64,000 nt of DNA, taken from positions 186,001-250,000 of the forward strand of contig NZ_JAJAPB010000002.1 of NCBI RefSeq assembly GCF_026226615.1. The letters are read 5' to 3'. This document shows, piece after piece, positions 9,734-42,268 of this stretch. This DNA comes from Geovibrio ferrireducens (GTDB taxonomy: Bacteria > Chrysiogenota > Deferribacteres > Deferribacterales > Geovibrionaceae). The stretch's first letter is position 1; every line of letters starts with the position of its first letter. The position numbers were made by a program, and so were the translations under genes. The notes beneath the pieces are model-generated. The model searched no databases. It was not told where the DNA came from and saw only the letters and a list, made by a program, of their open reading frames with translations.

Positions 9734-10006
9734 TAGTGAATCCGGCGTAAAAAGGGCGTTTGGGAGGTTTATTACATTTCGGGTGGTTAAATATTAAGCA
9801 TTTAAAATTACATTTTTTACAATTTTATCAGCTTTGTTTTATTTCAATCATAAGCTCTTTTATTATAAATAATTTATATAGCATACTCACTGGTTATATT
9901 TTATACATTTACGAAAACTTATTTGCTGTTTTTTGTTCGGGATCAATTATAGAAAAATCTTTGCGGCTATTATGCTTTTAAAGATTTATTCAAGAGGAGT
10001 TTTTTG
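9734..10006. other. AT-rich divergent intergenic region between nifA and the NapH-like gene
   Basis: This gap of about 270 bp has no plausible coding frame. It is strongly AT-rich. Apart from the sigma-54 match at its left end and the AAGAGGAG ribosome site at 9992-9999 for the gene to the right, I see no clear operator or RNA structure. Confidence 0.6.
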
Positions 10007-13702: not shown

Positions 13703-16700
13703 TTACTGTTTTCTTTCAGTCAGACGCTTGAAATCCTCCATAATAGAATAGGCGCTGGGAACAAAAAGAAGCGCGACTACAGTGGTGAAAAGCACCCCGA
13801 AGGCTATGCTCACCGCCATGGGAATAAGAAACTGAACGTGAATAGATTTTTCCAGTATCATAGGTGCAAGGCCGAAAAATGTGGTAAGCGATGTCATTAT
13901 GATTGGTCTGAACCTTCTTTTTGCTCCGCTCATGATGATTTCGTCATTGACATAGCCCTTTTCCCGCCCGAAACGGTTTATGAAGTCCACCAGAACAAGG
14001 GAGTTGTTCACCACAACACCGCTTACTGCCACCATTCCGAAGATGCTCATAAGGCTCAGTGTCAGCCCCAGCATCATGTGCCCGGCCGCCGCCCCCACAA
14101 GCCCCAGAGGGATGGAAAACATTATTATTAAAGGCTGAACATAGCTGGCCAGAGGTACAGCAAGCAGGGCATAAACTATCAGAACAGCAAAGGTCATGTT
14201 GTATTTCAGGCTCTCCATGGACTCCCTGCGGCTCTCCTCCTGCCCTTCAAACTTCCACTCCAGTCCGGGGAAAAGGCTCTGGATCTCTGGCATTGTTCCC
14301 GCTGAAAGATCTCTCATTATTTCCTGCGGGTTTGAAAATACCCCTGCTGTGGCAATAACATTGACCACTCTGCGTCTGTTGGTGCGGTTTATCTCGGTCA
14401 GATCCTCAGTAAAATAGACTTCTGCCACGGAGCTTAAAGGAACCTTGGAACCGGAAGGGGTTTTGATATTAACTGCGTATACATCCCCCTGATACTTTCT
14501 GCTGTAGTCGGGGTATTTCACCCTTACCGTAACCTCATCCTGCCCTCTCTGGTAGGTGAGAGATTTTATCCCCAGAAATGCCGGAGAAACCTGAGAGGCT
14601 ATCATTTCATTGGTAAGTCCCAGAGACCTGCCGTAGCTGTTCAGTTTATAATGGATCTCCTGCTGCTTTGAGGCAAAGGAGTCTTCAATATCGTAAACCC
14701 CGCCGTATTCGGCCAGCCTGTGCTTTATTATTCCGCTGGCCTCCCTCAGCACCTCTTCATTGTCATGATCCAGACGCACGGAGATGTTCGCCCCGAAGTT
14801 TCTGAGCTGCGAGTCAAAGCTGACGGATTCCGCTGAATTTATTGTACCCACTGCTCTGCGCCACTTCTCCTCGAAAAGGCCTGTGCGGAATTTGCGGATT
14901 TCATATTCATACAGCATAACATTAACAACGGCGCTGCCGTCCCTGCGTATGCCGCTGTTTATGTATTCTATGAAGCTCCCGCTGCTGCCCATCTCCTTCA
15001 TAAGTTCGGCATCAACCCTGAGCGCAGCTTCCTCAAGCCTTTTCACAACTCTTTCGGTAACTGCCGGGGCTGTGCCCGTGGGCATAACGGCAGTGGCCCG
15101 CACCCTGTCGCCCTCAAGAGGGGACATGAAGCGGAACTTAAGGTTGCCCGAACCCACAAGGCCTGCAAAAACTATTGTGACAGCGATAAAGGCCGCCACT
15201 GTTGCATATTTATACGTAATGGTAAGCCGGAGAAATCTGTCAAAAGGCCCGTTGATGAACCTGTCCAGAGCACTCCTTATGCCGTCTCTTATGCCCAGTG
15301 AAAACCGTGGTTTGCCGTCTCTTTCCCTGCCGGTGTTCATGTGTGCGGGGAGAATAAAAAAAGATTCCACAAGAGATACCATAAGAACGGAAATAACCAC
15401 CACAGGAAGAGTGTTCATGAGAAGCCCCATGCTTCCTTCTACAAAAAGCAGGGGCGCGAATGTGGCAACTGTTGTGAGAACGGAGAAGGTAACGGCACTG
15501 AGCATCTCCTTTGTGCCGTCTACTGCCGCTCTGTATCTGGTTTTGCCTGACTTGTAATGGGTGTGTATGTTCTCGCCCACTACTATGGCGTCATCCACTG
15601 CAATACCCAGCGTCATTATGAAGGCAAAGGTTGTTATCATGTTTATGGAAGCGCCCGCCAGATGAAGAAAATAGAATGAGCCGAAAACCGATATGGGTAT
15701 TCCGAGGGACACCCAGAGCGCCACACGGGTTTCGAGGAAAACCGCAAGGATGAGTATCACAAGGGTCAGGCCGAAAGCTGCGTTTTTCATAAGAAGGTTT
15801 ATGCGGTTCTGAAGCTGTTCTGACCTGTCATCCCATATTGTCACCTTCACCGCCTCAGGGAAAGATGCGGTTATCTTATCGACAGTTTCATGAACCTTTG
15901 CAGACACACTTGAAGGAGTCTGTTTGCTTACCCTGTAAACATCTATGGAGACAGAGGGCGCACCGTTGAAGCGCTCCAGTATGTCCTGCTCCTCGAAGCC
16001 GTCTCTTATCTCCGCTATATCACCCAGCAGAACCATACCCCCGCCTACGGAGGAGATAACGGGAATATTCCTGAACTCGCTCCCGGTCCGGCGTTTGTCG
16101 TACATTCTGAGTTTTATATCACCGGAAGCGGTTTCCAGCGTTCCTGACGGGTAGTCTATGGAGTTGTTTCTCAGGGCGTTTGAAACATCCCTGAGAGTGA
16201 GGTTATATTTTCTGAGGGTGTCCTCCGGTATCCAGACGGATATTTCCCTGTCCTTCACCGCAACATATTCAAGCTGGGTTATTCCTTCCGCGGCAAGCAG
16301 CCCGTTCTTTACTCTGTCGGCGTAATAGCGCAGAGCCTCTTCGCCCACATTGCCGTATATGCTCACGGTGAGCACTTCGCGCCGCCTTACCTCAAGCTCA
16401 ACATCTGGTGTTTCCGCCTCATCAGGGTAGGTGGAAATTTTGTCAACCTCCGATTTCACATCCTGAAGCGCCTGCTGTTTATCAACACCCTTGATCAGTT
16501 CTATGCTCACAGAGCCGGAGCCCTCTCTGGCTACGGATGTTATTTTGTTTACGAAATGAAGGCTGCTCACAGCGTCTTCCGTGGGAAGAATCATCCCCTC
16601 TTCTATTTCAGACGGGGAAGCGCCTGTGTATTTAAAGGTGATATTGATTATATCCCTTTCGGAATCGGGAAAAACCTCCTGCTTCATATTCAGCATCATG

Positions 16701-26059: not shown

Positions 26060-27091
26060 TTATATCTTCTCTGCCGGGCTCAGGAACTTTTCCATCTCAA
26101 AATCTATCTTTTCGCCCGATCTCAGCATGTTTCTGATACTCAGGATTTTTGCGTCATACGCTTCCAGAACGGAGAGACTGACTTTCTCCTTAGCACCTGT
26201 CTCAATCACAGCGGCAATTCCGCCGTTGCTGATTGCAATGCGCCTGTTGCCCATAAGCGCCAGAATCGGGTCGTGGGTGGACATGAGCACGATCTTCTCT
26301 TTCTTCACAAGTAGATCCAGAGCCTTTTTCCTGTCCACTCCCGCATTCTCTATTTCATCAATTAGAACAATCGGCGATGAACTGAGCAGGGCGGTATCCG
26401 CTATCATCAGCGCTCTGGACTGGCCGCCTGAAAGCTGAGTCAGCGCCGTTGTGCGCTCGAACTTCTCACCAGCAAGCTCATTGGCACACTCTATAACAGA
26501 TGCCACCGTGCCCTCTATATCCACAACCATGCGGCTTGAGGCGTGCATGGCGACAAAGCTTTCCACATTGAGATCAACCACAAAGTTCATATTCTGCGAA
26601 AGCTGAGCCACAAGCTTGTTCTCGAAACGGAAGCGCTCCTCCTGCGAGGGTGTTTTCCCGTCTATAAGGATTGTTCTTCCCGTGGGTGTGTCCTTCTGCG
26701 CAAAGCATTCTATATCCGCCAGAAGGCGGCTTTTGCCGGAACCTGTGGGGCCGACTATGCACATTATATCTCCGGGACGCAGCTCAATTTCCACATTTTC
26801 GGCGCGGCCGCTCTTATCCGTTCCGCCCACAACCGTGAGCGAATTAAGCCTGCGTCTTGAGCCCTTCACAAGCGCTGCCGCCTGCTCCATAAACTCAAGA
26901 AAATGTGTGCGCATCTGCTCATGCGACAGACCCGCATCCTCCATTGTCTCCTCATCCACGGATTCTATAAGCTCCTCAGGAGTCTGGAGACTGTCCTTCC
27001 ATGAAAGACCGATGGAGCGGAAATAATCCCCCGCGTAGGGGTGCTCCTGAAGCAGTCTGCCGAAAGGCACTTTCAGAAGGTGCTTACTCAT
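26060..27091 (-). CDS. Soluble ABC-type ATPase with DUF1858-like N-terminus (molybdenum-linked cluster)
   Basis: The 343-residue protein has about 90 N-terminal residues (FGRLLQEHPYAGDYFRSIGLSW) resembling the DUF1858 fold of its neighbour. An ABC ATPase domain follows with Walker A VGPTGSGKSRLL near residue 115, Q-loop AQLSQNMNF, signature TQLSGGQSRALMIA, Walker B SSPIVLIDEIE and H-loop LMSTHDP. No permease gene lies nearby and the protein has no membrane segment. It overlaps the GTPase gene by 8 bp and is the last gene of a three-gene operon behind a ModE-like site. A metal-handling or metallocofactor role is an inference; import in the usual ABC sense seems unlikely. Confidence 0.82.
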   Translation of the reverse strand: MSKHLLKVPFGRLLQEHPYAGDYFRSIGLSWKDSLQTPEELIESVDEETMEDAGLSHEQMRTHFLEFMEQAAALVKGSRRRLNSLTVVGGTDKSGRAENVEIELRPGDIMCIVGPTGSGKSRLLADIECFAQKDTPTGRTILIDGKTPSQEERFRFENKLVAQLSQNMNFVVDLNVESFVAMHASSRMVVDIEGTVASVIECANELAGEKFERTTALTQLSGGQSRALMIADTALLSSSPIVLIDEIENAGVDRKKALDLLVKKEKIVLMSTHDPILALMGNRRIAISNGGIAAVIETGAKEKVSLSVLEAYDAKILSIRNMLRSGEKIDFEMEKFLSPAEKI

Positions 27092-27788
27092 AGGGAACCG
27101 CCTCTTTGAATGTCATCTTCTTCACATTACCTTTCTGGTGGGCGACACCTATATCCGTTTCTCCCACGCAGTAAGGGCAGATGGCAGCGGGAATCGAGAA
27201 GCGGAGCCTTGCACCCTCAAGGGATGAAACCTCTGAGGCTTCATCAAATGAGAAGCTCAGATCATAAGCCCCTTGCCCTGTGATTCCGTTTACGAACATA
27301 ACTGCCGCCTTGGGGTTAGCCTGACGCACACGGAACGCGAAAACCTCCCTTTCTGCCTGAGAGACTATGTCCCCCTTGGTGATTACCGCTATGTCCGCGT
27401 AACGGAGCATAGGCCCTATCTTCTGCGGTGTGTCCACCCCTGAGAGGCAGTCAATGACACATACGGCTGTAACGCCTTTTATATGAGGCGCACAGCGGTT
27501 GCAAAGTCCGGCGCTTTCGCTTATTAGCACGTCAAAGCCCTTCTCTTTGCCCCACTGAACACAGTCGTCAATATTGCTTACGAAGTAGTGGTCAGGGCAC
27601 AAATTTCCGGACAGCCCTGTCACAACTGTAAGTCCGGCCTGAGTATAAAGCCTGTGGTCAAGGGCTGAGAGGCAGTCAAATTTTACTATGCCTATCTTCC
27701 CTTTGTATTTGCTCAGGTATTCTGCTGTTTTTATAATAACCGAGGTTTTCCCCGCTGACGGGGGCCCGGCAACTGTAATAAGCTTCAT
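27084..27788 (-). CDS. P-loop GTPase of CobW/HypB/UreG type with Cys motifs
   Basis: The 234-residue protein begins MKLITVAGPPSAGKTSVIIK (P-loop). It has a Walker B-like Asp region DVLISESAGLCNRC, a guanine-specificity-like VITKGD (TKxD) and three Cys sites: NLCPDHYF, CNRC and CPYC near the C-terminus. These features match the SIMIBI GTPases that deliver metals to enzymes (HypB, UreG, CobW, MobB-like). It sits between the binding-protein-like gene (18-bp gap) and the ABC ATPase gene (8-bp overlap). The ModE-like operator upstream of the operon suggests molybdenum or tungsten; nickel or zinc cannot be excluded. Confidence 0.82.
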   Translation of the reverse strand: MKLITVAGPPSAGKTSVIIKTAEYLSKYKGKIGIVKFDCLSALDHRLYTQAGLTVVTGLSGNLCPDHYFVSNIDDCVQWGKEKGFDVLISESAGLCNRCAPHIKGVTAVCVIDCLSGVDTPQKIGPMLRYADIAVITKGDIVSQAEREVFAFRVRQANPKAAVMFVNGITGQGAYDLSFSFDEASEVSSLEGARLRFSIPAAICPYCVGETDIGVAHQKGNVKKMTFKEAVPYE

Positions 27789-27806: not shown

Positions 27807-29048
27807 TCAGCGGATAACAACATGCAGTTTTTTGCCCTGCTCTTTTTTACGCTGTCTGAGCTTTTCCATAAACCTGTCGTTCAGGTCATCAGAGAAGGCT
27901 TTCATGTCCCTTTCCCTTATGAAATCCCAGCCGAGCCATTTGATTTTCGCCCCTTCGGGCAGGCTGTTCTCAGCTTCCGGGTGAACGGAGGGGAAAAAAG
28001 AGGATGACATAATGGATGCCAGTTCCTTTCCTGTCATATAGTCTATGACAGGCTTAAGCCTCTCTTTTTCGCTCTTTTTGACAAGCATATACATGGGGCT
28101 TGCCATTGCTCCGTCCTCCGGCCAGATTATCTCAGTGTGTTCGGTATTCGGGCAGGATTTAGCAAAAAACCAAGGCAGAACATATATCGCAGCGCCGTTT
28201 GACATGGAGCTGCCCGCCGCTTTTGCCATCTGTGAGGCATGCCAGCCGTCCCTTATATTGGGAAGCAGCCTGTCCAGCCCCTCCTGCCCGTAATCCTTCC
28301 AGATATTCACAAGGAGAACCTCGCTGATATAGTCGTCACTGCCGCCGACGATGATGTTGTTTTTGTATTCCGGCCTGAGCAGATCGCTCCAGCTTCGGGG
28401 AACAGGGAGATCTTTAAGCTTCTTGTAATCCACAAGAATTACGTAGGTATAAACCGCATAAACTGTGTAAACACCAAGCGGATCTTCTATCCCTGCTGAG
28501 GCAAACGGTTCGGGCATGGGCTTCATCTGGCAGGACTCATAGTAACCGCTGTCAAGAAAGCGGGATGTGAACTGGCTTCTGTAAAATGAGCCGAAGCCTA
28601 TGGAACCAACTATATCGGGCAGTTCGTCAATATTGTGCGACTGCCATATATCCTCGTAAGGGTCTGCCCCGCCGCAGCCCATCGGCACGAAGCTGACAAA
28701 CTTTTCACCTGTCTTCTCAAGGTGCTTAAGCATGGCCTCTTCGTATGATTCCTTGAAAAGGTGCTTCACTGGGCAAACCATGTAACCGAGGAAATCCGGT
28801 TTAACAGGGGGTGCATCCTCCGTGTAGAGCATCGGAGTTTCACATGCCTCTATGCGCTTTTCCAGCAGTGGGAGAAAAATTTCGGGGTTAAGCTCCCTCA
28901 TCTTCATAAACGAAGCAAGGGTAAGGGTTTTAAGGAATGAACCGTTCGAAGCGAACACTCCGAGTCCGTTCATCATGAACAGTTCCTTTGTTTCGGGAAA
29001 ATCCGCAAAAATGTCTGAAATACTCATTTCAGGCCTGATATTTTTCAA
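27807..29048 (-). CDS. Cytosolic DUF1858 plus solute-binding-protein-like protein
   Basis: The protein of 413 residues has an N-terminal DUF1858-type domain (MSISDIFADFPETKELFMMNGLGVF) and then a two-lobed extracellular-binding-protein fold of the AfuA/FbpA kind. Recognisable parts include PKPDFLGYMVCPVKHLFKE, DELPDIVGSIGFGSFY, VPRSWSDLLRPEYKNNIIVGG and GYMTGKELASIMSS-like segments. It has no signal peptide, so it should act in the cytoplasm, which is odd for this fold. I chose the TTG start at 29048 because a perfect AAGGAGG lies 5 nt upstream; a GTG at 29108 is open but has no ribosome site. It heads the three-gene operon with a ModE-like box 74 bp upstream of the start. Confidence 0.8.
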   Translation of the reverse strand: MKNIRPEMSISDIFADFPETKELFMMNGLGVFASNGSFLKTLTLASFMKMRELNPEIFLPLLEKRIEACETPMLYTEDAPPVKPDFLGYMVCPVKHLFKESYEEAMLKHLEKTGEKFVSFVPMGCGGADPYEDIWQSHNIDELPDIVGSIGFGSFYRSQFTSRFLDSGYYESCQMKPMPEPFASAGIEDPLGVYTVYAVYTYVILVDYKKLKDLPVPRSWSDLLRPEYKNNIIVGGSDDYISEVLLVNIWKDYGQEGLDRLLPNIRDGWHASQMAKAAGSSMSNGAAIYVLPWFFAKSCPNTEHTEIIWPEDGAMASPMYMLVKKSEKERLKPVIDYMTGKELASIMSSSFFPSVHPEAENSLPEGAKIKWLGWDFIRERDMKAFSDDLNDRFMEKLRQRKKEQGKKLHVVIR

Positions 29049-29121
29049 GACTGCCTCCTTGAAACCGCGCGGGATGACGCACGGAGATAATATAGCCTGA
29101 TCCGTCACTTATAATAACGAC

Positions 29122-29149
29122 ATCGCTATGAAGTAAACTATATAGCGAT
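29122..29149 (-). promoter_or_regulatory. ModE-like operator (molybdate-responsive)
   Basis: An inverted repeat ATCGCTATGAA-N6-TATATAGCGAT fits the extended ModE consensus (ATCGCTATATA-N6-TATATAACGAT, from memory) in total length (28 bp), spacing and 19 of 22 arm bases. It lies 74 bp above the TTG start of the binding-protein-like gene, overlapping a possible -35 region with a TATTAT-like -10 downstream. This links the three-gene cluster to molybdenum or tungsten supply. Confidence 0.7.
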
Positions 29150-29243
29150 GATATTAAATTATCAATAAAAAACCTGTGTATCGTTTTATCCGGTGAATAG
29201 TATATATTTTATCCTTTTTGCACTGTTTGTCCAGTAGCTAAAG

Positions 29244-32200
29244 TTATTTTTCATCAGCAGGGATGAGCACACCCGCGGTTTTCCGCAGTTCAGCCGCAGT
29301 GAGAAGAAGGTTCAGCCTTGCGGCCTTCATGTCATAAACTGCCTTTTCCGCCGCCGCGCCTGTCTGCATGTATTTCGATTCGCTAACCAAACCCGCCTTA
29401 AGCCTGTCCTTCATCTGGCGGAAGTTTTCCATTGCCAGCTCCGCAGCCTTTTCCGCGGTTTTCAGCGCGCTAAGGGCATATTCCTGTCTGCCGTTCAGCC
29501 TGTTCAGTTCAACATCCAGCCTGCCCCGGACATTCCGCAGGTTTTCGGAAGCCTGAATGACCTGAGCGTTTCTTTGACCTAGTACGCCCTTGCGCTTGCC
29601 CCAGTCAAAAACATTCCACTCCGCCTGTACGCCGAAGCTGGTTATACTGCTGTCCACAAACGGAACCCCGTCCTGATACGTGTGGCGGACAAACAGCCCC
29701 AGATCGGGTATGTATTCGTCTCTGGCTGCGCCTCTGGCACGCTGAGCTTTTTCCAGAGTGTATTCCGCCGCCCGGATGTCAGGGGAGGTAAGACAGGCCT
29801 CGGCGGAAGTGATATTAACCCGCTCCGGCTCATCCCCGAACGTATCAGACAGAGTAATTTCAATGCCTGCCGGAAGATTCAGAAGATCCCTGAACTGAGC
29901 CCTGAGATCTGAAAGCCTTGTTTCTGCGGCTGTCACATTCTGTCTGCTGTTCAGCAATCCGGTTTCTGTCTCCAGAACCGTTGACTCAAGCACATTGCCC
30001 GCCTCGAAAGCATCGCGGGCTTCCTTCAGTGAATGCTCAAAGGCGGCAGTGTAAACCCTGTAAACTGCTGTCTGCTGCTCAGCCAGAATAATGCCGTAAT
30101 ATAACTGGCGCACCGCAAAGGCTGTTTCGTTCCGCGCCTTTCTGTGCCTTGCTTCTGCGGCTTTCAGTTCAGCATCAGCAGCACCGACCCCTTCATTTAT
30201 TTTAAAAAGCTGGGTAAGCGGCTGTTTCACTGTGGTGTTCACTATGAACAGTGAATCGCTCCCCTGATCTATCTTCAAATCCTCCGTGGGGAAGCCGCCC
30301 AAACCGGGCACTGTGCCGAGAGCACCCTTATCTATAGTAACTACGCCGTTGTTGGTTGTATCGGTATACATGGCATCCACGGAAAGCATAGGAAAATAGC
30401 TTGCCCGTGCGGACATCTTCACCGCCGCATGCTCCTGTATCACAGCTTCGGTTATCTTAAGGCTGCGGCTGTTTTTAAGGGCATATTCCTCAGCCTGTTT
30501 CAGAGTGAAGGTTTCTGCATGTGCTGTGCCGCTGATCAGAAACAAAGCCAGAGCGGCTGCGGCTGTTTTTGTTCCGCCTTTTCCTGACATTACAACCACA
30601 TACAGAACAGGAACCACAAGAAGTGTAAAGAACATGGAGAATATCAGCCCCACGGCTATGACACTTGCAAGGGGGCTCCACAGGCTCGAACCGGAAAGAA
30701 TCATCGGAGTAACCCCCACAGCGGCTGCCATTGTGGTGAGGAATATGGGGCGGAGCCTGCGCTCTCCTGCCTCTGTGGCGGCAAGCTCAATGCTGTGCCC
30801 TTCGGCGGTTTTCTCTTTTATGTAATCCACCAGAATTATGGCGTTTCTAACCACTATTCCGCATAGGCTTATCAGCCCCATGAAGGCGGTGAACCCGAAG
30901 GGGTTATTGGTGATGAAAAGCCCGAACATAGCCCCCGGCAGTGCCAGAGGTATGGACGACATAATAACAAGCGGTTCACTTATGTTCTTAAACTGCACAA
31001 GCAAAACGAAGAATATGGCTGCAAGGCTTATGCCGAGGGCGACCATCATCTGGGGGAAAGTCTCCTCACTGTTCATGAGCTCGCCGCCGTAACTGATTTT
31101 ATATCCGGCGGGCAGCTTAATCCCCTCCACGGCAGGGCGCACCTCATCCAGAAGGGCAGAGGCGTAATATCCTTCTTTCACAAATGCCCTTACGGTAAGT
31201 GTCGGAACTCCGTTTCTGCGGACTATGCGGCTTGTCTGAAACTCCGGCTTAAGCTCCGCAAAGGAGCGCACCGGAACCTTAGCACCCGTCACGGGGGAGG
31301 TTACGTAATAATCGCCAATATCAGCAAAGCTTCTGCGGTTTTCCTCGCCCAGCCTCAGCACAACGGGAATCACCCGCTCCCCCTCCCTGTAGTCCGTAAC
31401 AGATAAACCGTCAAACCCGCCGTAGAGATAACCTGCAATGGCGGATGAGGGAATCCCCAGCCTTGCGGCGGCATCAGTATCCACTGCCACATCTATCAGT
31501 ATGGAATCATTGAAAAAATCGGTATGCACATAGTCGGAATAAGGCACTGCGGATACTATTCCGCTTATCTGCGCGCCTATCCGCTTGAGCTCCTGAATGT
31601 CATACCCGCTTATGCGGATCTCCACCGGAGCCTCCAGCAGATTCCCCTGCTGAAGCTCTTTGACTATCACAAGTGCCTCCGGCGCTGTTTCGGTCAAGGT
31701 TCTGCGCAGTTCATAAACCAGCCCCACGGTTGCATCCTCCGAAACAGTGTTCACTATAAACTGGCCGTATGCGGGATCAGGCTGCTGAGGGTTTACGTTA
31801 TAGTAGAATCTGGGCGCACTCCTGCCCGCAAAGGCAGCGAAATGGCTCACATCCTTATGACTGCCGAGGGATTTCTCTATGCGGCGCATAACATCGTCAG
31901 TGGCCTCTATTCTGGAGCCCTGCGGCATCCATACGTCAATAACAAACTGGTTGCGCTCCGCAGAGGGGAAGAACTGCTGAGGAACATATCTGAAATAGAG
32001 AGCCCCCAGAAGAACAGCGGCTACCCCGACCACAGCGGCAAGATATTTGCGCTTCATGAATATGCTTATTGTAACGGCGTAGGCATTCTGAACCCTGTCC
32101 AGAACGGTGCGCCTTTTCTTTTTCCCGGCTGTTTCATCATGCAGCCCTTTTTTGATGAAGAACCTGCAAAGTATAGGCGTAAGCATAACCGCCACAATGA

Positions 32201-33635
32201 ACGAAACAGAGAGTGCTATGGAGACGGTTTTCGGAAGAGCCGAGATAAACTCGCCCACCGAACCTGAAAGAATAAGCAGAGGAAGGAACGAGAATATGAT
32301 GGTGAGAGTCGCCGTGAGCACAGGCACAAAAACATCGCCCGCAGAGCGCCACGCCACATCCTCCTTCGGGACTTTTCTGTCCATAAGTTCCACGTAGTTA
32401 TCAGCTATTACTATGGCATCATCCACCACAATCCCCAGCACCATAATAAGCGATGCTATGGAAACCTGATGGAGAGCTATTTCAAAAGTGTTCATCAAAC
32501 CCAAAGTGGCGCAGAGAGTTACAGGAATGGCAACAGCTGCGATGACCGCCACCCTTATGGGCAGCAGGATTATTGTGACAAGTATCACAGACGCTATTGC
32601 CAGCATGAACTCATGGGTGAGCGTGCTCATCCTCTTTTTTACTACCGTCGGCTGATCTGCTATGAGATCGAGTGACAAATCCGGCGGCAGAACGCTCTTA
32701 AGCTCCGTAAACACAAGGCTGATGGATTCGCCGAGTTCTACAATGTTTTTCCCTTCCTGCATCTCAACTGACAGCAGAAGAGCGGGTGCGCCGTCATACC
32801 GCACCATAAACGAAGGGTCTTCGTAAACACGCTCAATATCCGCCACATCTTTCAGATAAACCGGATGCCCCGTTGTGCGGGAGACATCTATGAGCGTGTT
32901 CCCCACATCTTCCTCGGCACTGAAAAGCCCGCCTGTCTTTATGGGAATCCTGCCTTCCGGCGATTCAAAACTGCCGGAAAATCCTGTGACATTCCTCTCT
33001 CTCAGTGCGCGGGCAATTTTCATGGGGTCAGCGGAATATGCTGACAGCCTTTCGGAATCTGTCGTGACCTTTATCTGCTCCTGCTGCTTTCCGTAAACGG
33101 CGAGTTTGCCTATCTCCCGCACGGAACGCAGGCTGTCACTTATTTTATCCGTGTAATCGCTCAGTTCCCTGTAGCCGTAGTTTTCACCGTGTACGGCAAT
33201 AAGCATAGCCACTGTGTCACCGAAATCGGAGTTTACCGAAACGCCGAGAACTCCTTCGGGAAATTCCGAACGGGCTTCAATAAACTCGTTACGGAGCTTA
33301 GCCCAGAAAACATCCGCTTCTGTAACATAGTCCTCAAGCTCAACATTTATAACAGCAATGCCGGGGCGGCTGGTGGAGTAGGTTTTTTCCTTTCTTATCT
33401 CAGGAAATTTAAAGATATGCTCCTCAAGCTTTGAGGTAAGCTGACGCTCCACCTCATCAGATGTCGCTCCCGGATATATGGCAAGCACAAGGCCTGTACG
33501 GATGGTTATGGAAGGGTCTTCCGTCCGGGGCATCTTCATAAATGCATGGATGCCCGCAATCACTACTGCAAGGGTGATAACAACTGTAACTATCGGGTGG
33601 TTCAGGGAACTTTTAATAAACTTCATCTCTGTCAC
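29244..33635 (-). CDS. RND efflux transporter fused to a TolC-like outer-membrane protein
   Basis: The reading frame encodes 1463 residues. Residues 1 to about 1015 form a full RND permease: first helix VVTVVITLAVVIAGIHAF, TM4 motif GIVVDDAIVIADNYVELMD, and final helices ending TLLVVPVLYVVVMSGKGG. Directly after this comes a signal-peptide-like stretch (TAAAALALFLISGTAHA-ETF), then about 430 residues with OEP-type helices ending LRKTAGVLIPADEK. The two are normally separate proteins in different membranes. The AHA-ETF site could be cut by signal peptidase to release the channel. An internal ATG (about 30591) at the junction has no ribosome site. The gene overlaps the adaptor gene by ATGA. Confidence 0.9.
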   Translation of the reverse strand: MTEMKFIKSSLNHPIVTVVITLAVVIAGIHAFMKMPRTEDPSITIRTGLVLAIYPGATSDEVERQLTSKLEEHIFKFPEIRKEKTYSTSRPGIAVINVELEDYVTEADVFWAKLRNEFIEARSEFPEGVLGVSVNSDFGDTVAMLIAVHGENYGYRELSDYTDKISDSLRSVREIGKLAVYGKQQEQIKVTTDSERLSAYSADPMKIARALRERNVTGFSGSFESPEGRIPIKTGGLFSAEEDVGNTLIDVSRTTGHPVYLKDVADIERVYEDPSFMVRYDGAPALLLSVEMQEGKNIVELGESISLVFTELKSVLPPDLSLDLIADQPTVVKKRMSTLTHEFMLAIASVILVTIILLPIRVAVIAAVAIPVTLCATLGLMNTFEIALHQVSIASLIMVLGIVVDDAIVIADNYVELMDRKVPKEDVAWRSAGDVFVPVLTATLTIIFSFLPLLILSGSVGEFISALPKTVSIALSVSFIVAVMLTPILCRFFIKKGLHDETAGKKKRRTVLDRVQNAYAVTISIFMKRKYLAAVVGVAAVLLGALYFRYVPQQFFPSAERNQFVIDVWMPQGSRIEATDDVMRRIEKSLGSHKDVSHFAAFAGRSAPRFYYNVNPQQPDPAYGQFIVNTVSEDATVGLVYELRRTLTETAPEALVIVKELQQGNLLEAPVEIRISGYDIQELKRIGAQISGIVSAVPYSDYVHTDFFNDSILIDVAVDTDAAARLGIPSSAIAGYLYGGFDGLSVTDYREGERVIPVVLRLGEENRRSFADIGDYYVTSPVTGAKVPVRSFAELKPEFQTSRIVRRNGVPTLTVRAFVKEGYYASALLDEVRPAVEGIKLPAGYKISYGGELMNSEETFPQMMVALGISLAAIFFVLLVQFKNISEPLVIMSSIPLALPGAMFGLFITNNPFGFTAFMGLISLCGIVVRNAIILVDYIKEKTAEGHSIELAATEAGERRLRPIFLTTMAAAVGVTPMILSGSSLWSPLASVIAVGLIFSMFFTLLVVPVLYVVVMSGKGGTKTAAAALALFLISGTAHAETFTLKQAEEYALKNSRSLKITEAVIQEHAAVKMSARASYFPMLSVDAMYTDTTNNGVVTIDKGALGTVPGLGGFPTEDLKIDQGSDSLFIVNTTVKQPLTQLFKINEGVGAADAELKAAEARHRKARNETAFAVRQLYYGIILAEQQTAVYRVYTAAFEHSLKEARDAFEAGNVLESTVLETETGLLNSRQNVTAAETRLSDLRAQFRDLLNLPAGIEITLSDTFGDEPERVNITSAEACLTSPDIRAAEYTLEKAQRARGAARDEYIPDLGLFVRHTYQDGVPFVDSSITSFGVQAEWNVFDWGKRKGVLGQRNAQVIQASENLRNVRGRLDVELNRLNGRQEYALSALKTAEKAAELAMENFRQMKDRLKAGLVSESKYMQTGAAAEKAVYDMKAARLNLLLTAAELRKTAGVLIPADEK

Positions 33636-40867: not shown

Positions 40868-42268
40868 ATGAAAATCACAAAGGAAATGACAGTCCACAAA
40901 GTTGTCTCACAGTATCCGCATCTGAAAGATATTTTTATAGAATCCGGCTTTAAAAGCATTACAGACCCCATTAAGTTCAGCACTGTCGCTAAGGTTATCA
41001 GCCTTGAAAACGCATGCAGGATGAAGGATGTTGACCCGGCAGCCTTCCTTGAAAAGCTTAATAATGCTGTGGGCGGAGGTTATGACAAATCATCCGAAAT
41101 GGAGCGCCATATTGAGATCGATAAAAACAGGGCGGAGAAAATAGCCGCCATAGTGAGCAAATTTTTTGACGGGGCGGACAGGGTTCTGCTGCAAAAAGAA
41201 TATGATGCGATAGCGCCTGTCACTGCGGCGGAATTTGCCTATGCGGAACAGCTTATATCCGATGCCGGAGCGCCGGACAGCAAGTTTGAGAACGAGATAG
41301 GCGGAGTTCTGGCTCTTTTCCGTTCTTCCCTTGAGAACAACACTGTGCCTAATCTGCCTGCGGGGCATCCGGTTTCCACATATATAAAAGAAAATGCCGA
41401 GATACTCAGACTCACAGCAGAAGTCAGAAAAGAGCTTGAAACAATCACCCCTGACAGGGAGAACCTGCTCCGGCTTTATAAAAAGCTGAAGGATGTCAAC
41501 CTCCACTTCGTCCGCAAGGAGACACAGCTTTTCCCCTACCTTGAGAAAAAAGGGTTCGACAAGCCAACAACCGTTATGTGGACGCTCCATGACAGGATAA
41601 GAAAAGGGATCAAAGACAGCATAACAGCACTTGAGCACGGAAGGATTGATGAATTTCTCAAGATACAGGAATCACTGCCAGAAGAGATAGACGGAATGAC
41701 CTTCAAAGAGGAAAAGATCCTTTTCCCCACAGCGCTTATGATGCTGAGCGAGGATGAGTGGAAGCAGATAAGAAGCAACGAAAAAGATCTTGAATACTGC
41801 TTCATAGAACAGCCCGAAAGCTGGGGAGACAGCCCTCAGCCCGTGTCTGCACCTTTAAACGGGCTGGCATCGCTCATAGAAGGCGCATTATCAATCGAGC
41901 AGCTTAATGCTGTTTTCAGCCACCTGCCGTTCGATATATCATTTGTGGATGAGAACGACCGGGTAAAATTCTACAACTCCGCACCGGACAGAATATTTCC
42001 CCGCAGCCCCGATGTCATAGGGCGTGAGGTGAAGTACTGCCACCCGCCGAAAAGCGTTGCCACAGTTATGGAAATTCTCGACTCATTCAGAAACGGGAAA
42101 AGGGACAAGGCTGAGTTCTGGCTCACTCTGGGCGGCAGATTCCTCCACATCAGATACTTCGCAGTAAGAAGCGGAGACGGCAGATACATGGGGACACTGG
42201 AAGTAATGCAGGATGTGACCGAAGTGAGGAAGCTGGAAGGAACAAGAACCCTGCTCTCATGGGAGTAG
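40868..42268 (+). CDS. DUF1858/DUF438, hemerythrin-like and PAS sensor protein
   Basis: The 466-residue protein starts with a DUF1858-type domain (MTVHKVVSQYPHLKDIFIESGFKSI). A region like DUF438 follows, then a hemerythrin HHE-type segment with LHFVRKETQLFPYLEKKGF ... MWTLHDRIRKGI ... FKEEKILFPTALMML (His and Glu positions for a di-iron site). A PAS domain closes it (FDISFVDENDRVKFYNSAPDRIFPRSPDVIGREVKYCHPP). This layout is known from anaerobes and is thought to sense oxygen, NO or redox. There is no output domain. A GGAGG site precedes the ATG. Confidence 0.85.
   Translation: MKITKEMTVHKVVSQYPHLKDIFIESGFKSITDPIKFSTVAKVISLENACRMKDVDPAAFLEKLNNAVGGGYDKSSEMERHIEIDKNRAEKIAAIVSKFFDGADRVLLQKEYDAIAPVTAAEFAYAEQLISDAGAPDSKFENEIGGVLALFRSSLENNTVPNLPAGHPVSTYIKENAEILRLTAEVRKELETITPDRENLLRLYKKLKDVNLHFVRKETQLFPYLEKKGFDKPTTVMWTLHDRIRKGIKDSITALEHGRIDEFLKIQESLPEEIDGMTFKEEKILFPTALMMLSEDEWKQIRSNEKDLEYCFIEQPESWGDSPQPVSAPLNGLASLIEGALSIEQLNAVFSHLPFDISFVDENDRVKFYNSAPDRIFPRSPDVIGREVKYCHPPKSVATVMEILDSFRNGKRDKAEFWLTLGGRFLHIRYFAVRSGDGRYMGTLEVMQDVTEVRKLEGTRTLLSWE

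Follow-up and report, generated by a model that had tools for sequence, protein, structure and literature searches.

Genes and control elements of the operon

The window, as the whole stretch of 64,000 nucleotides is called here, carries on its minus strand an operon of three genes, coding for a receptor with a periplasmic-binding-protein fold, a HypB/UreG-like GTPase and an ABC ATPase (Table 1), together named the trio. The original prediction had described a 28-bp inverted repeat, with 11-bp arms and a 6-bp centre, in the promoter region of these genes. Length and spacing hold, but the arms are imperfect, since 9 of 11 positions are complementary and the left arm has GA instead of the TA of a perfect palindrome at positions 9-10.

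Table 1. Location of the three genes and of the predicted control elements (window coordinates)
Feature	Position	Strand	Description
ModE-type operator	29122..29149	.	11-6-11 imperfect palindrome, ATCGCTATGAA-GTAAAC-TATATAGCGAT
Sigma-70-like promoter	29137..29165	-	TTGATA-17-TATAGT; predicted, consensus pattern match
Possible second, upstream promoter	29206..29233	-	TGGACA-16-TAAAAT; weak pattern match
Shine-Dalgarno sequence	29054..29060	-	AAGGAGG, 5 nt upstream of the TTG start
Receptor	27807..29048	-	413 aa, TTG start; periplasmic-binding-protein fold (SBP_bac_6), DUF1858-like helical N-terminus
HypB/UreG-like GTPase	27084..27788	-	234 aa; family matches, conserved motifs, predicted fold
ABC ATPase	26060..27091	-	343 aa; N-terminal helical region, LSGGQ and ENAG motifs, no membrane domain

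The ModE consensus of the Escherichia coli modABC operators, used for genome scans, is ATCGCTATATA-N6-TATATAACGAT (PMC2700814); the pattern scanned here was ATCGYTATATA-N6-TATATARCGAT, with Y/R allowed at the single variable position. The window site resembles the E. coli operators in its length, in the 6-bp centre, in 20 of the 22 bases (two mismatches, Y/R allowed), in the overlap with the -10 box and in the presence of a cognate ModE. No match with up to three mismatches was obtained in 100 dinucleotide-preserving shuffles of the window, and the proposed fit to the extended ModE site is thus sustained.

The -10 hexamer TATAGT lies at 29142-29137, inside the operator, so that the predicted transcription start, near 29130, falls within the site and repression is the natural reading; the palindrome indeed occupies the promoter region, as had been claimed, covering both the -10 box and the predicted start of a conserved promoter. 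In both other genus members examined, the operator is found at the same place, and promoter, AAGGAGG and TTG start are conserved with it; the promoter hexamers of these relatives are TTGATA or TTGAAA, together with TATAGT, while the operator copy of G021 matches the pattern at 21 of 22 positions and is a better palindrome than that of the window. Farther upstream of the promoter the sequence diverges in G022. The hexamers of the possible second promoter are identical across the three genus members. A GTG codon at 29108 is in frame in the window and out of frame in both relatives, owing to a 1-bp indel; the start is therefore the TTG at 29048, and the earlier assignment of this codon and of its ribosome site is borne out by their conservation. 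Rfam searches detected no regulatory RNA upstream of the operon, and the Moco riboswitch RF01055 is not present within the window.

Most likely, the palindrome works as a ModE operator and represses the three-gene operon when molybdate is plentiful, and Mo-loaded ModE is very likely the repressor. As a ModE operator the site is unremarkable; what deserves attention is the uncharacterised trio to which it leads. The site differs from the E. coli operators in the three genes that it would control, which occur in none of the described ModE regulons found in the literature searched.

ModE and its sites in the genome and in related genomes

Scanning of the 2.97-Mb genome, which had been suggested as a check, returned exactly three matches with up to three mismatches: the window site, a site upstream of modAB and one upstream of modE-modC; the reversed pattern, used as a control on the same genome, gave none. 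The modAB site (C13:35043, two mismatches) lies 18 bp upstream of modA, and the other one (C3:289950, three mismatches) is 8 bp upstream of modE; a modC-type gene comes next, then genes for a ModA-like binding protein and a permease. By mismatches, the window site equals the modA site and ranks better than the modE site. A modE gene, also sought as a check, is present: its full-length product of 263 aa has a LysR-type HTH and two Mop domains, matches the E. coli ModE structures 1o7l and 1b9m (E = 1e-36) and scores 148.6 bits for Mop (cut-off 55) and 96.1 bits for the HTH, slightly below the cut-off of 98.5. The genome also codes for a second ModE-type HTH protein, of 124 aa and devoid of Mop domains (L007, 1396-1770; G000 contig C2, at about 18 kb). 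Its gene is found near a ribose-type ABC importer, with Cas-like genes further on.

Among 50 Deferribacterota genomes scanned, ModE-site matches are concentrated in the family of the window, with few in other families, and the control pattern gave no match in that family. Within the genus, the family and the phylum, such sites stand before modABC, modE, a TonB receptor (L170) and ExbB/TonB genes (L169, L181), and they are also located upstream of operons that are molybdoenzyme-like by sequence (L173, L176, L183, L184). In both genus relatives (L171, L175), a ModE-like site separates a SAM methyltransferase from a divergent phosphonate-type (PF12974) ABC importer; this pair is a candidate Mo-regulated oxyanion uptake system. 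The same methyltransferase family is found near the trio in 19 other related loci, so that trio and methyltransferase share one regulon in one phylum and one neighbourhood elsewhere; no ModE-linked methyltransferase was matched in the window genome. The Seleniivibrio-type genomes (G024-G028; L044-L048) carry the trio, with no ModE-consensus site within the flanks examined, and in four of the five ModE-like sites occur elsewhere, at molybdoenzyme-like operons and ExbB. Control of the trio in these genomes may be different.

Properties of the three proteins

The receptor belongs to SBP_bac_6 (5e-80), with a sub-threshold DUF1858 match at the N-terminus; its structural model (pLDDT 91) begins with a folded helical domain. 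Neither the domain search nor the predicted structure gave evidence of a signal peptide or of a hydrophobic signal stretch. The best fold matches are the ferric-binding proteins FutA/FbpA; polyamine and phosphosugar binding proteins are matched as well, and no molybdate binder is present among these fold neighbours, whose ligands are ferric iron, polyamines and phosphosugars. The receptor shares with FutA/FbpA the periplasmic-binding-protein fold (TM about 0.66 by target length); unlike them, it has no evident signal peptide, carries the DUF1858-like N-terminus and contains a nearly invariant Cys in a CPxK motif, with sequence identity limited to 10-18%. C92 and H270 are nearly invariant.

The GTPase matches the CobW/HypB/UreG group at 3e-11, and its model (pLDDT 90) has HypB and UreG as the nearest folds. 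Across 37 sequences, the GxPxxGKT P-loop is invariant, as are C64-P-D-H67 (CPDH), C96-x-x-C99 (CxRC; CxRCxP) and C204-x-x-C207 (CxYC), while C39 and C110 are nearly so; P-loop and a Cys/His metal-type motif at switch I, a putative metal site, thus occur together. Fold, P-loop, the Cys/His motif near switch I and solubility are common to HypB and UreG, the G3E-type nickel metallochaperone GTPases (PDB 2hf8, 5xkt). The trio enzyme differs from them in the additional invariant CxxC motifs, in scores far below the family cut-offs (43.5 vs 121.2 bits for hypB, 23.1 vs 204.2 bits for ureG), in the usual company of a receptor and an ABC ATPase and in its Mo-linked regulation. The full score of either family is not reached, and the kinship is one of fold and of weak sequence similarity only.

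No permease is coded in the three-gene operon, and the features of a conventional ABC importer are lacking also in the receptor, with its folded N-terminus devoid of a signal stretch. The most economical reading is that of a soluble metal-handling complex, driven by GTP and ATP. The three proteins likely assemble in the cytoplasm, where they would probably act as a metal-handling machine that is turned on by Mo shortage.

Homologous operons in other phyla

Related loci (76) were fetched by exact peptide patterns taken from the window GTPase; because such a search is biased towards close relatives, the phyletic list is not exhaustive. The 18 Chlorobiaceae loci contain 22 ModE-like sites matching at 17 or more of 22 positions, compared with none in five dinucleotide-shuffled sets, whereas the remaining loci contain a single one, against 0 to 2 in shuffles. 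In L085 and L096 the site is directly upstream of the receptor gene, while in L094, L104, L108 and L114 it precedes a longer operon that includes the trio; that of L104 comprises a FecCD permease, a FecE-type ATPase, a TonB receptor, a methyltransferase, FecB, the receptor, the GTPase, the ABC ATPase and a TonB protein. L114 has a modE gene immediately downstream, and in L122 there is a modE-type HTH gene. Outside Deferribacteraceae and Chlorobiaceae no ModE-consensus site was seen before the trio; given these loci and the Seleniivibrio-type ones, Mo control is not universal.

In Clostridia, the same gene set is associated with the Moco riboswitch RF01055, the element of a described regulon (PMC2408646) that heads trio operons in two loci. 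In L091 it leads an operon of FecB, receptor, GTPase and ATPase; in L083 it leads a FecBCD-trio operon and, separately, a paralogous trio. Of the 41 non-Chlorobiaceae loci scanned, only three gave a match to RF01055, and in the third, L142, the copies found lie downstream of the ATPase gene of the trio. Here, a tandem of three riboswitches is located at 15042-15622, at spacings of about 200-260 bp, and a fourth copy lies at 9737. The cobalamin riboswitches of L090, L093 and L102 were discarded as control elements of the trio, since they lie downstream of it and precede other genes. A second, paralogous GTPase-ATPase-receptor set is present near the main trio in L083 (745-3157) and L090 (60-2616), with GTPase identity of 44-46%; the trio system thus has at least two subfamilies.

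Mo-linked control elements are therefore present on homologous operons of three phyla. Two unrelated Mo-sensing mechanisms found on the same gene set are the strongest single argument for the molybdenum link, which is well supported.

Proposed function

The explanation that we favour, and that we regard as probable with due reserve, combines repression by ModE at plentiful molybdate with a cytoplasmic machine for the handling of molybdenum, or tungsten. With molybdate in good supply, Mo-loaded ModE would sit on the -10 box and on the start site, keeping the operon off; when molybdenum is short the operon would open, like modAB and modE-modC of the same genome. The products would be the FutA/FbpA-fold receptor, the Cys-rich G3E-type GTPase, akin to the HypB/UreG metallochaperones, and the soluble ABC ATPase. 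The trio would most likely receive molybdenum (or tungsten), probably as a chelate, from TonB/FecBCD-type importers of the kind coded beside it in many relatives, and GTP and ATP could be used to free the metal or to pass it on, for nitrogen fixation or for other Mo enzymes. On balance, the metal handled should be molybdenum or tungsten; its origin from chelates imported by FecBCD/TonB systems is plausible.

Nickel and cobalt have well-established GTPase metallochaperones; none is known to us for molybdenum. A more specific and tentative proposal, possible though not the expected outcome, sees in the trio a metallochaperone system of a new kind, for molybdenum (or tungsten). When Mo is scarce, the trio would strip it from a chelate or thiomolybdate brought in by import and feed the assembly of nitrogenase cofactor or of Moco; such a system would be spread over Deferribacterota, Chlorobiota, Bacteroidota, Bacillota, Spirochaetota and some Pseudomonadota. 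No paper describing the trio was found in the literature searched, which was mainly open-access, so that this absence is weak evidence of novelty. The data suggest that bacteria, mostly nitrogen fixers, have a system not yet described for coping with scarce molybdenum. Such a system touches two open questions, the intracellular delivery of Mo in bacteria and the uptake of Mo as chelates in sulfidic, Mo-poor water; a conserved NTPase trio under a ModE repressor or a Moco riboswitch, mostly in nitrogen fixers, is a concrete and testable candidate.

Nitrogen fixation and alternative explanations

Genes for Mo nitrogenase had been noted in the neighbourhood, and NifD and NifH are in fact coded at the left end of the window; at a distance of 25 kb, they are weak evidence taken alone. 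Better evidence is the association at the genome level, nifH being above the cut-off in 31 of the 36 trio genomes.

Nitrogen fixation also underlies the alternative that fares best, although we hold it to be unlikely, namely that the operon is repressed by molybdenum and serves a substitute that works without Mo, its products providing iron or vanadium to an alternative nitrogenase or to another replacement pathway used in the absence of Mo. AnfG/VnfG is coded in 12 of the 36 trio genomes, and AnfG in four of the five Seleniivibrio-type ones. Among 100 Paenibacillus genomes the GTPase is present in 11, all of which have nifH, and AnfG accompanies it in 9 of the 11, vs 6 of the 43 other nifH-bearing genomes (Fisher p = 4e-5, a value that ignores shared ancestry). 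The fold of the receptor, closest to ferric-binding proteins, would suit such a role, as would the linkage of vnf genes to fepBCD in P. zanthoxyli (PMC3961195). However, AnfG/VnfG is absent from the other 24 trio genomes, and no match to PF03139 was obtained in the window genome or in its two genus relatives, all three of which have the trio. An alternative nitrogenase was thus rejected as sole explanation for the window genome, where anfG is absent, and it cannot be the general one. Moreover, Moco riboswitches report the molybdenum/tungsten cofactor, not the nitrogenase status. We infer the metal of the trio to be Mo, and not one that would replace it in an alternative nitrogenase.

A Mo-controlled uptake system, with an unlinked permease and a receptor exported by way of no recognisable signal, would account for the importer-like pairing of a binding protein with an ABC ATPase and for the FecCD permeases adjoining the trio in relatives, where FecBCD importers, TonB receptors and the methyltransferase are its neighbours. 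The FecBCD-type neighbours may play the role of MolBC-A, the FecCD-type molybdate importer of Haemophilus (PMC4031551); the trio itself is not a MolBC-A transporter, and no FecBCD or TonB gene adjoins it in the window genome. Uptake by the trio is nevertheless decidedly improbable, because the adjacent FecBCD importers already include a binding protein and an ATPase besides those of the trio, the receptor starts with the folded DUF1858-like domain in place of a hydrophobic signal stretch, and an importer would have no use for the HypB-like GTPase, which is nearly invariant.

As regards the regulator, the palindrome might be bound in the cell by the 124-aa ModE-like protein, which lacks molybdate-binding domains, and control would then not depend on Mo. 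This second HTH protein makes the idea conceivable, but there is little to recommend it over the full-length ModE of the same genome, given that the same consensus is found upstream of modAB and modE-modC. Chance similarity of the palindrome to a ModE site is hardly credible, with two of the three matches in 2.97 Mb on mod genes and none for the control, an operator kept across the genus, the same wiring in Chlorobiaceae and an equivalent riboswitch in Clostridia.

Other genes of the window

A DUF1858-like N-terminus, as in the trio receptor, is found also in a 466-aa protein coded at 40868-42268 on the plus strand, where hemerythrin-like and PAS-like parts apparently follow it, by our own reading of the sequence. 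At 29244-33635, on the minus strand, an ORF of 1463 aa is apparently a fusion of an RND efflux permease and a TolC-type outer-membrane factor, again by our own reading, and a stretch resembling a signal peptide lies where the two meet; the fusion looks real, since an ORF of 1474 aa is located at the same place in a near relative (L071).
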